From: Sporomusa sphaeroides DSM 2875
GTDB lineage: Bacteria; Bacillota; Negativicutes; Sporomusales; Sporomusaceae
Length of the DNA stretch: 64,000 bases
NCBI RefSeq assembly: GCF_001941975.2
Contig: NZ_CP146991.1
Span: 3,841,001-3,905,000, forward strand
Reading direction: 5' to 3'
A program made the translations under genes and the position numbers. The first letter of the stretch is position 1. Each line of letters begins with the position of its first letter. The notes under the pieces were generated by a model. The model did not search any database, was not told the origin of the DNA, and saw only the letters and a program-made list of their open reading frames with translations. Shown piece after piece: positions 34,582 through 38,455 of the stretch.

Positions 34582-34683
34582 AGCCTAAAAAGATTCTAGT
34601 TTGTCATCTATCTATAGTTTCTTATAAATTAGTTTCTCTGATCGAAATCGTGCATCCGTATTTAGGGACAAGGTACCTGTCCC
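34582..34683. other. Short spacer with IS1182-type end fragment, IS110 target flank
   Basis: No gene. At 34665-34683 lies GGGACAAGGTACCTGTCCC, which matches the right end of the IS1182-type element (GGGACAAGGAACCTGTC) at 15 of 16 positions. This fragment is the left flank of the IS110 insertion. Confidence 0.6.
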
Positions 34684-34685
34684 CT

Positions 34686-34944
34686 GTAAGATATAGTACA
34701 GAAGGATTATCCATTTAGGAGGAAAAAACTCCGAACAATCAGTTTTGTGTATAATGGGATGGAAGGATATGAATGTACCTGTCCCAGGGAAGATTTTTTC
34801 TATACCCATAACGTTGACAATTCATCCATTTCCAAAGCATTTACGTTTTAGCTGGTTGGGAGTCTATTCCCGCTTCACGTGCAAGGCTGTGATCTTTGAC
34901 AATGGAATGGATAATCCTTCGACACTATTCTTAGGAGGGGCTTT
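34686..34944 (+). ncRNA. Candidate IS110 bridge RNA in the left end
   Basis: IS110-group elements express a bridge RNA from the non-coding left end that guides target choice. Here 34775-34785 (GTACCTGTCCC) repeats the eleven bases of left target flank that precede the core CT (34673-34683), as expected of a left-target guide. A GGAG/CTCC hairpin (34718-34732) precedes it. I could not identify the right-target or donor guides with confidence, so the assignment is tentative. Confidence 0.45.
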
Positions 34945-36213
34945 ATGGTGATTAACCGGCCTGCTATTGGTATTGATGTTGCTAAAGACTTTTGTGTTTA
35001 TGCTGCGGTTTCGCCCAACGGTACGATCTTATTGAATCCATTTAAAGCCTTAAATACAAAACAGGGGCTTTTTTTCGCTTTAAGGGAAATAAAAAAAGTG
35101 GAAGACGCGTTTGGTAGTAAACCGGCAATTGTCCTAGAATCGACAGGTCACTTCTCTCAACGCATTGTCCACTTTTTTTTGAAACAGGAGCTTGATGTCT
35201 TCCTCATCAATCCCCTTATTTCCCATTCTATCAAAAATTCATCGGTAAGAAAAGTAAAGACTGACCAAGTTGACGCAGTTGATTTAGCTAAATTGTTCTT
35301 TACCCAAGGGTTGCGCAACACCTATATACCCAGCGAGGCATTAGCAAATTTGAAAATATTATCGAGGACTAGGTTTCAATTAGTAGAACAACGTGCTGGT
35401 ATTTTGAATCAACTTATTGCTGCCATTGAGCAAGTTGCCCCGTTGTTCCCCAAAGTCTTCGAGCCTTCCTCCTTGACAGCGCTCACTCTGCTCACTCAGT
35501 TTCCAGCTCCTGCGCAATGGGTAAAGACTTCTAACCATAAGGCGATCCTGCAAATGTTGGAATCCCTGCCGCGACGCGGCAAAGACTATGCTCAAAAAAA
35601 GTTTAACGCTTTATTGGATTGTGCTAAAGATGCTACATTCACGGGTATTGAGCTGTCAGCCAATTTTAGGGTTATACAAATTTACGCTGACAACCTACGG
35701 TTCATGGATACCCAAATTAAAGCCATTGATGATGAAATTAATCAATGGACAGAACAACTCCCTGAAATTGCCTTGCTTAAAAGCATACCAGGTATAGGTG
35801 GAACATTGGCACCCCTTATTGTGGGAGAAATAGGCGATATCATGCGATTTACCAATGCCAAACAGCTTGTAGCTTATTGTGGAATTGATCCAACTGTACG
35901 CCAGTCCGGGAATTTTGTTGGCACCAGAAACAAAGTGACAAAAAGAGGCTCGCCTTTCTTACGAAAAGCATTATACGTTGCCGCAATAACAGCCATTCGC
36001 AAAAATCCTAATGGATCGCTCGTAAATTCAGTCATCCACGAATATTACAAAAAGAAAATTGAGTCCAAACCTAAAAAGCAAGCATTAGGTGCGGTTATGA
36101 ATAAGCTACTACGAATTATTTTTTCTGTCCTAAAAAACAAACAGCCTTTTTGTTTAATTACTTCAGAGCAGCAAGTTGCCTTGTATCAATCTCTCAGAAA
36201 AAAGGCAGCTTAA
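34945..36213 (+). CDS. IS110-family transposase (RuvC-like DEDD plus Tnp C-terminal domain)
   Basis: A 422-residue recombinase. The N-terminal DEDD domain shows IGIDVAKDF, IVLESTGHFS and VKTDQVDAVDLAK; the C-terminal domain shows SIPGIGGTLAPLIVGEIGD, then YCGIDP and TKRGSPFLRKALY with the putative serine nucleophile. All are typical of complete IS110 enzymes, and the frame is intact. TAGGAGGGG lies just ahead of the ATG. Lower GC content than the flanking genes fits recent arrival. Confidence 0.95.
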   Translation: MVINRPAIGIDVAKDFCVYAAVSPNGTILLNPFKALNTKQGLFFALREIKKVEDAFGSKPAIVLESTGHFSQRIVHFFLKQELDVFLINPLISHSIKNSSVRKVKTDQVDAVDLAKLFFTQGLRNTYIPSEALANLKILSRTRFQLVEQRAGILNQLIAAIEQVAPLFPKVFEPSSLTALTLLTQFPAPAQWVKTSNHKAILQMLESLPRRGKDYAQKKFNALLDCAKDATFTGIELSANFRVIQIYADNLRFMDTQIKAIDDEINQWTEQLPEIALLKSIPGIGGTLAPLIVGEIGDIMRFTNAKQLVAYCGIDPTVRQSGNFVGTRNKVTKRGSPFLRKALYVAAITAIRKNPNGSLVNSVIHEYYKKKIESKPKKQALGAVMNKLLRIIFSVLKNKQPFCLITSEQQVALYQSLRKKAA

Positions 36214-36344
36214 TTTCAGTTGGAAATTGAATATTAACAGGCCCTTATTAAATAATGTTCGTATCTTTTGGAGGGTTGTTTGCTATACCCTTTTTCAAGA
36301 CAAGATTTTTTTATTTAGGGATTGACTTCAGTTAGCTGGTCTTT

Positions 36345-36367
36345 GTCCCACTGTCCCCTTGTCCCAC
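36345..36367 (-). repeat. IS1182-type terminal sequence fragment
   Basis: CTGTCCCCTTGTCCCAC is the reverse complement of the outer left end of the neighbouring IS1182-type element (GTGGGACAAGGGGACAG), preceded by another GTCCCA copy. It is an isolated remnant that forms the right flank of the IS110 insertion. Confidence 0.6.
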
Positions 36368-36419: not shown

Positions 36420-36451
36420 AAGAAAAGGACTGACGTGCTCTAACACGTCAG
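36420..36451 (-). terminator. Terminator downstream of the small toxin gene
   Basis: CTGACGTG and CACGTCAG form an 8-bp stem with a six-base loop; on the minus strand TCCTTTTCTT follows. A second hairpin with a GAAA loop on the plus strand (36464-36481) lies between this and the toxin gene. Confidence 0.65.
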
Positions 36452-36501
36452 CCCACAGGTTGTCTAACCGGAAACGGTTAGCCCGATTTGGAGTTATTCA
36501 G

Positions 36502-36537
36502 GAAATAACCGCAAACTTAGCAGGAGGCGGTTATTTC
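36502..36537. other. Hairpin over the toxin stop codon
   Basis: A perfect 11-bp stem (36502-36512 with 36527-36537) spans the last codons and stop of the small gene. It may stabilise its 3' end or be the site of antisense pairing, as in type I systems. Confidence 0.55.
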
Positions 36538-36605
36538 TGCTTTATCATGAGCACAACAAGTGTTGCAAATGCAATCATTAAGTACATTGCCTCAAATGTT
36601 GACAC
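36531..36605 (-). CDS. Small holin-like toxin peptide (type I toxin candidate)
   Basis: A 24-codon gene beginning at GTG 36605 with GGAGG seven bases ahead. The peptide begins MSTFEAMYLMIAFATLVV and ends in MIKQK: one hydrophobic helix with a short basic tail. This is the pattern of the Firmicute putative holin-like toxins, which start MSTFE or MSTYE and insert into the membrane. An extended -10 promoter (TGTTATAAT; forward 36667-36675) lies 60 bases upstream. Structured sequence at and beyond the stop suits an antisense antitoxin RNA from the plus strand, but I cannot prove one. It is flanked by mobile elements. Confidence 0.72.
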   Translation of the reverse strand: MSTFEAMYLMIAFATLVVLMIKQK

Positions 36606-36730
36606 ATTACCACCTCCTTTTACCAAAAGGAAGTGGCTAACCGCTCCTGTACAACCTGTTACGCCAATTATAACATATTCTGCCAGAGCGAACAGGAAAA
36701 TGTTGTCGCTGGCTTTTATCAGTCACCGTG

Positions 36731-36760: not shown

Positions 36761-38455
36761 TGTGGGACAAGGGGACAGCAGACTGTGTGAAAAATCCTCT
36801 CACGCCCTCTAATAAAGTAGCTTAAAATACAAAATGCTAGGCAAATCGTTAACTTTTGGTTGAACTGAATAGCATCTAGCGGGATTTAGGCTAAAGCCGG
36901 AGATTTTCTAGCAGTCAATTTTGCTAATACTTCTTTCGTCCCCAGGATAGATATAACACGCCTAAGGTTATACGATAAAAAAGACAAAGAAAGCTCCCCT
37001 GTGACTGAGCGCTTACGCTTAGTCAGGAAATAATACGCTCCCCATCCTCGTTTAATTGTTCCAAAAACATGTTCAATGATCATTTGCCGTAATCGGTATT
37101 TATCTTTATTTTTCTCAGTCTTTAGATTAATCGTATCTAAAAAGTCTTGGTCTATATGCCGAAAGATACTTCGACCCTTTGCACTTCGAGTACAGCGTTC
37201 TTTTACCGGACAAGAGGAACAGGCTGCATAATTTCGGTATTCGTAACCAATAACGCCTTTTTCCTTACTGGTTCTCTTCTTGGCAAAATATAACTCAATT
37301 CCTCTGGGACACCGATATATATTTTCCTCTGCGTCGTAATGAAACTTATCCGGGTAAAACTCTTTATCTCCGGTCCCGTTCGAATATGTTTGTTTCGCGA
37401 CATACGGAGTGATATGATTTTTTACGCATGTTTTGAGGTCGTCAACCTTGTAATATCCTTTATCTGCTACCACTTCGAGCTCTTTTTTTTCAAGCACCAC
37501 TTGGGCACGCAAGGCCATGTTAGCTAACTCACCCAAATCGTTGGCCTGTGTTGTTACTTTGAAGTCTGCCACTAATTTGTGTTTGGCATCGACTGTGGTC
37601 TGTACATTGTAGCCTACATCTACTGTATTATTGTTATTGGACATAAGTCGAGCATCCGGGTCTGTTGTAGAGACTTCACTGCAGCCTTTTTTATCTATCG
37701 TTTCTTGATAAGCCTGATAGGTTTGTTTTCGATTACGAAGTTCTTGAATTCGCTGTTGTACTTCTTGTACCGACAGCTTACGTTCCTGAGTCTCCGCGTT
37801 ATCCGTTGTCTCTAGTTCTTTCATATAGGTTTCAATTTTTTCATCGATATACCGGATATGACGTTCCAGTTTTTTGGCACTATAATTATTCTTTTTGCTA
37901 TTACAAGCTCGCATTTTAGTCCCATCAATCGCCACTAACTCTTTGCCATATAGGCCCCATTCATCGCACAGGCGTACGAACTGGCGAAACACCTTTTTGA
38001 GGGCGAGTTTATTATTTTTGCGAAAGTCCGCAATGGTTTTATAATCTGGTTTTAGTTTTTGCAATAGCCAGATGACTTCTAGGTTTCGTGCTGCTTCTTG
38101 CTCAAGCCTGCGCGATGAGCGGACCCGGTTTAAATAGCCGTATAAGTATAATTTTAATAAGACTTTTGGGTTATAGGGAGGGCGCCCGAAAGTGGGGCTA
38201 GTCGATCGCTCAAATGCCAGTTCCAACACATCAAGCTGTTCCACGAACGCATCTATAATGCGAACTGGATTATCTTCGTGGACGTAATCGTCGATACTTT
38301 CGGGAAGCAAAATTGTTTGTCCTCTTTCTTCGCCTTTTATATAGCCCATACTCTCACCTTCTCAATCAGTATACAACTATATTTTAACATATTTGTAATT
38401 TCATATAATTTTTAAATGCACTTTTCACACAGTCTGACAGGTTCCTTGTCCCACA
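36761..38455 (-). mobile_element. IS1182-type insertion sequence, 1.7 kb
   Basis: Terminal inverted repeats of about 37 bases bound one transposase gene. Left: TGTGGGACAAGG at 36761, then CAGACTGTGTGAAAA inward; right: the same two blocks reading inward from 38455, with a different middle (AACCTGT against GGACAG). Shared T-runs outside make the exact ends uncertain by a few bases, and I see no clear target duplication. The element is complete and probably active. Confidence 0.85.
36886..38349 (-). CDS. IS1182-family transposase
   Basis: A 487-residue DDE transposase. It starts with the family's N-terminal domain (ILLPESIDDYVHEDNPVRIIDAF and, later, GRPPYNPKVLLKLYLYG), has a long charged linker (about 150-205), and continues with the DDE core (VVADKGYY, a C-x2-C...C zinc-like cluster around CSSCPVKERC, and EHVFGTIKRGWG). 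The frame is intact, with no frameshift. Confidence 0.93.
   Translation of the reverse strand: MGYIKGEERGQTILLPESIDDYVHEDNPVRIIDAFVEQLDVLELAFERSTSPTFGRPPYNPKVLLKLYLYGYLNRVRSSRRLEQEAARNLEVIWLLQKLKPDYKTIADFRKNNKLALKKVFRQFVRLCDEWGLYGKELVAIDGTKMRACNSKKNNYSAKKLERHIRYIDEKIETYMKELETTDNAETQERKLSVQEVQQRIQELRNRKQTYQAYQETIDKKGCSEVSTTDPDARLMSNNNNTVDVGYNVQTTVDAKHKLVADFKVTTQANDLGELANMALRAQVVLEKKELEVVADKGYYKVDDLKTCVKNHITPYVAKQTYSNGTGDKEFYPDKFHYDAEENIYRCPRGIELYFAKKRTSKEKGVIGYEYRNYAACSSCPVKERCTRSAKGRSIFRHIDQDFLDTINLKTEKNKDKYRLRQMIIEHVFGTIKRGWGAYYFLTKRKRSVTGELSLSFLSYNLRRVISILGTKEVLAKLTARKSPALA

Follow-up and report, generated by a model that had tools for sequence, protein, structure and literature searches.

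An IS110 element in a dispersed palindrome

The window (the whole stretch of DNA that was analysed, 64,000 nucleotides of the 5.0-Mb Sporomusa genome) carries an IS110 element at positions 34685-36342, its right core dinucleotide CT included; this and all features below lie on the plus strand unless stated otherwise. The element is present in two identical copies, and its ends are conserved in relatives. It encodes a 422-residue transposase (34945-36213) in which the DEDD RuvC and Transposase_20 domains both score above the Pfam cut-offs (PF01548, E = 5.6e-29; PF02371, E = 5.8e-26), assigning it to the IS110 family (IS110 group). By sequence, the protein is homologous to the structurally solved recombinases of IS621 (8wt6, E = 1.2e-18) and ISCro4 (9t56, E = 5.1e-19), with the motifs IGID, E(S/A)T, KTDxVDA and SG common to all three. 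Upstream of the gene lies a non-coding leader of 260 bases (34685-34944). About 19 further IS110 transposases are encoded in the same genome at 26-29% identity, and short decayed left-end and right-end remnants of related IS110 elements are found at L005:1501-1575 and L007:1497-1565. Two minus-strand loci adjoin the element in the window: a DDE transposase gene (DUF772 and DDE_Tnp_1_6; 36886-38349) and a type I toxin-antitoxin-like locus that matches BsrG in Rfam (36430-36658; 58.4 bits, E = 4.6e-11). The latter apparently encodes a short, hydrophobic peptide that starts at a GTG codon, and three similar copies of it (85-86%) occur in the genome (L003, L004 and L006).

The second copy of the element (L002) is 100% identical to that in the window. 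Identity of the two runs from GGGACAAGG to TTGTCCCACT, beyond which the sequence differs, and the copies therefore have in common both a left flank and a right flank (TTGTCCCACT). Each copy divides a palindrome into a left part (34665-34684; GGGACAAGGTACCTGTCC followed by the target core CC) and a right part (36343-36351; TTGTCCCAC), which together complete the uninserted sequence. The target is thus the dispersed palindrome GGGACAAGG-NACCTGTCCCC-TTGTCCC, found uninserted as GGGACAAGG[GTA]ACCTGTCCCCTTGTCCC and written around its core as ACCTGTCC-CC-TTGTCC; allowing up to two mismatches, its left part is found dispersed at 28 sites of the genome. Because two of these copies flank a RAYT-type Y1 transposase gene in opposite orientation (L156:1080-1936), we identify the palindrome as a REP. 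A genus-wide search for orthologous uninserted loci returned REP-wide matches only, and the empty site was consequently read from paralogous REPs.

Ends of the element and core dinucleotides

Comparison of both copies with uninserted paralogous REPs fixes the ends: no base is gained or lost, and there is no target-site duplication. Joining the flanks restores the REP only when the left end is read as ...GTCC-CC|TGTAAG and the right end as ...GGT-CT|TTGTCCC. The left core dinucleotide is accordingly CC (34683-34684) and derives from the target, a register given by the uninserted REP copies together with the left ends in other genera. The preliminary description had placed a CT core on the left, one base off this register; such a core would require an uninserted CTGTCCCCTTTGTCCC, which is absent from the genome at three or fewer mismatches, whereas CC yields the common REP. 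At the other end the right core dinucleotide, CT (36341-36342), is the donor core, and nearly all right ends that were found carry AGCTGGTCT or AGCTGGACT. The homologous elements of other genera have CT at both ends, on the left immediately ahead of (T/A)GTAWRAT, whereas this element and most copies in the genus have CT at the right end but CC as the target and left core.

A predicted bridge RNA in the leader

The sequence GTACCTGTCCC occurs exactly in the left flank (34673-34683) and again inside the leader (34775-34785), as had been described; no other site in the window matches it with one or fewer mismatches. For a prespecified 11-mer and a leader of about 260 bases, the probability of a chance match is about 6e-5, and this match is not due to chance. 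On the basis of the match and of the covariation across genomes presented below, we assign GUACCUGUCC (34775-34784) as the left target guide, followed by the core-binding bases CA (34785-34786).

The two copies might instead represent a single IS-bearing REP that was copied as a unit, by REP/RAYT mobilisation or by gene conversion. Both share the whole REP and a rare GGTACC variant of it, their outer flanks diverge exactly at the REP edges, and RAYT genes flanked by the targeted REP are present in the genome. The rare T variant, however, is the one that the 10-base guide prefers (T is found at 4 of the 28 sites, and two insertions would both fall on T by chance in about 1.6% of cases). Moreover, an insert of 1.7 kb far exceeds the known size of REP and REPIN units. 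Copying as a unit is therefore improbable, and the two copies are likely to be independent insertions.

The leader is predicted to form a bridge RNA (34701-34920) whose two ends pair in a 14-bp stem (34701-34714 with 34907-34920), and it folds better than all 200 of 200 shuffled sequences (z = -4.06). When ten sequences are aligned, the 14-bp stem is kept in 97.8% of cells, and the stem together with the helices of the target and donor loops in 97.9%, compared to 42-63% when the helices are slid. Variation in the 14-bp stem includes G-U, A-U and G-C pairs and one two-sided change; over all helices, two-sided changes amount to two pairs, a small number because the ten sequences are close. A search of Rfam gave no bridge RNA match. 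The target-binding loop (34771-34823) is closed by GAAT/ATTC (34771-34774 with 34820-34823) and contains an inner GGG/CCC hairpin (34787-34789 with 34805-34807). The putative right target guide, which had gone unidentified in the preliminary description, is AUAACGU (34808-34814), followed by the core-binding bases UG (34815-34816); its position is assigned from register-specific covariation among 12 guide classes. In this copy the guide is weak: only three of its internal positions pair with the right flank, a G-T wobble among them. It fits TTGTCCC poorly and the REP variant TCGTCCC, which is present in the genome, slightly better. We also considered GACAA (34816-34820) as the right guide and rejected it, since its conservation extends to elements whose right flanks differ.

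In the donor loop, the left donor guide UUAGCUGGU (34848-34856) is an exact 9-base match to the right end of the element (36332-36340), just before the right core, and it is invariant in the genus. A candidate right donor guide, AUCUUUGAC (34892-34900), would pair discontiguously with GTAAGAT (34686-34692) as AUCUU(UG)AC; the same 9-to-7 discontiguous pattern has been reported in IS621 (PMC11208160). Because the donor guides are invariant among relatives, they carry no covariation signal to read.

Covariation of guides and targets

The element has relatives in further genomes of the genus and in Pelosinus, in a single genome from another family of the order, and in eleven genomes from other parts of the phylum. 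Left flanks in the genus read CCGTCC or CTGTCC before the core, and the leader carries a matching guide. At the variable position, guides with U are found at both T and C targets and guides with C at C targets only, although the numbers are small; a G-U wobble with the bottom strand would open C targets to the U-guides. Beyond the genus, relatives have different leader guides and correspondingly different sites, in the predicted register only.

We quantified the left covariation by comparing guide and target over the 6-8 bases before the core in 13 genomes, the register having been chosen from the conserved core-binding dinucleotide before any sliding. Guide and target agree on average at 4.7 of 6 bases, compared to 3.1 for shuffled labels, and 3 of 100,000 label shuffles are as high; at 7 and 8 bases none of 100,000 is. 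On the right, the match among the 12 guide classes is 2.0 of 4, compared to 1.0 when shuffled, with about 1 in 50,000 label shuffles as high; neither set of shuffles corrects fully for phylogeny. Sliding the register by 1-3 bases abolishes the left signal, and the right signal is likewise seen in register only. The tables were assembled by hand from sequence, and the left sequences were rechecked by script. The reading of the internal match as a left target guide is thus supported, left flanks tracking left guides in register at about 32 sites in at least 13 genomes. Copies with the same internal sequence and unrelated left flanks, which the preliminary description had named as evidence against a guide, were looked for across about 32 insertion sites and were mostly not found. 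The exceptions are L126, in which guide and flank do not match, L059 and L079, in which the match is displaced by one base, L083, in which a changed guide stands at the old target, and two weak copies in G112.

The Sporomusa malonica copy (L058) was considered as a counter-example and rejected: its unrelated left flank is the 3' end of a later-inserted group II intron, before which stands ACAACCACCGTCCC, the REP again. This intron, which carries a reverse-transcriptase gene (L058:864-2740), lies exactly at the REP/IS110 left junction. The exceptional leader at L083:1508-1582 is conserved and has a wholly different left guide (GATCGAGTAG-CC), yet it is found in the usual CCCGTCC target; either the guide changed after insertion or the element moved in trans. 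L083 also has TCGAGTAG in common with group II intron 3' ends in reverse-complement orientation. Elsewhere, an IS110 leader in G027 (L074, about 1670-1720) is broken near the transposase gene start by a reversed group II intron 3' end, and L131 (minus strand, about 1500-1800) holds a miniature IS110 derivative that lacks a transposase and in which about 200 bases contain both a right end and a target loop with the guide GTAACCGTCCC.

These data bear on the idea that the internal GTACCTGTCCC is a captured REP fragment or a chance match, and that the transposase reads REP hairpins by protein alone. The target is indeed a hairpin-forming palindrome, most sites in the genus end in GTCC, and all sites are C-rich. 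This account is nevertheless highly improbable: relatives outside the genus pair other guides with other targets, in register only, the guide sits at a conserved position in the loop, and the right side covaries as well. In-register covariation on both sides points to an IS621-type bridge RNA in this IS110 element. We observe the matches, the ends, the target repeats, the guide-target covariation and the conserved RNA fold directly, and it is very probable from these sequences that the element is an IS110-family insertion sequence choosing its sites by means of a leader-encoded bridge RNA.

Predicted circle junction and proposed strand exchange

The preliminary description had predicted a promoter created by joining the ends, with TTGACT and TAAGAT at a spacing of N16. 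Both hexamers are present, the putative -35 at 36322-36327, within a TTGACTT that is conserved in right ends, and the putative -10 at 34687-34692. From the uninserted target copies, however, the circle junction follows as GGT-CT-TGTAAG, which makes the spacer N17 (TTGACT-N17-TAAGAT). The predicted junction is thus GGTCTTGTAAG, and GGTCTGTAAG would belong to another register. Joined ends of the G112 relatives give TTGACT-N17-TATAAT.

We infer transcription, RNA-protein assembly and strand exchange as follows. The bridge RNA, encoded in the 5' leader, would probably be transcribed from the promoter formed by the joined ends of the excised circle. The DEDD/serine transposase would then exchange strands just 3' of a dinucleotide that differs between target (CC) and donor (CT), which would leave CC at the left end and CT at the right end. 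Top-strand cleavage in IS621 falls just 3' of the core (PMC11208158), and a cut of this type would give products with CC on the left and CT on the right, as observed in both copies and in most copies in the genus. The core-binding bases are CA on the left and UG on the right, and the second base of the target core is as a result paired by neither target guide. Moreover, the second core base of IS621 is an almost invariant T that is read by the protein (PMC11208158), which makes a CC target core a real departure.

Placing the exchange point one base to the right would give a target core of CT and a donor core of TT. A T is shared, so the DNA products are identical under either reading and do not by themselves tell the two apart. 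Relatives with CT at both left and right cores, in which the junction spacer is also 17, indicate that the donor core is CT, and the right-target register is best with a CC core; the shifted exchange point is therefore rather unlikely. We favor, with moderate confidence, a branch of IS110 in which recombination routinely joins a donor core of CT to a target core of CC, the second core position being unpaired by the bridge RNA. If this is correct, the near-invariant second T of IS621 is contradicted, the sequence rule for bridge recombinases is relaxed and more targets are open to them; the ends would also be a natural marker of the strand-exchange site, permanently recording which strand was exchanged where.

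Comparison with known systems

The element is a bridge-RNA system of a known kind, and the point for specialists is a target core (CC) unlike the donor core (CT). Searches of the literature gave no description of the REP target, the guide or the core mismatch of this IS110 branch. For an uncharacterised branch, the guide, the natural target, the donor guides and the expression switch have thus been read, or in part predicted, from sequence alone, together with an independent test by covariation.

IS621 (Durrant 2024, PMC11208160; Hiraizumi 2024, PMC11208158) is similar in its IS110 transposase domains and its REP target and, as predicted for the present element, in a junction promoter and a leader-encoded RNA that has a donor loop and a target loop with a hairpin between its left and right guides. 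The present transposase, however, is about 95 residues longer (422 residues compared to the 328-residue chain of 8wt6), the left guide matches 10-11 bases, the core-binding bases are CA/UG, the REP is a different one, the target core reads CC where IS621 has CT, and the predicted bridge RNA is closed by a 14-bp end-to-end stem. A core that is CT in the target as well as at either end is typical of IS621, and other first-position cores are tolerated in published work; we do not treat such a core as obligatory for the family. The ISEc21 seekRNA system (Siddiquee 2024, PMC11187229) also belongs to the IS110 group, with an upstream non-coding region, no target duplication, a circle-formed promoter, and a bottom-strand match located 5' of the top-strand match. 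Its target is an IS3 transposase gene, unlike the dispersed REPs of the present element. Other REP-targeting insertion sequences (Tobes and Pareja 2006, PMC1525189; ISPpu9, PMC8450116) likewise insert into repetitive extragenic palindromes; this element differs from them in its host lineage and in that a covarying guide specifying the REP has been identified. The association of IS110 elements with REPs, known from E. coli and Pseudomonas, thus recurs in acetogenic Negativicutes.
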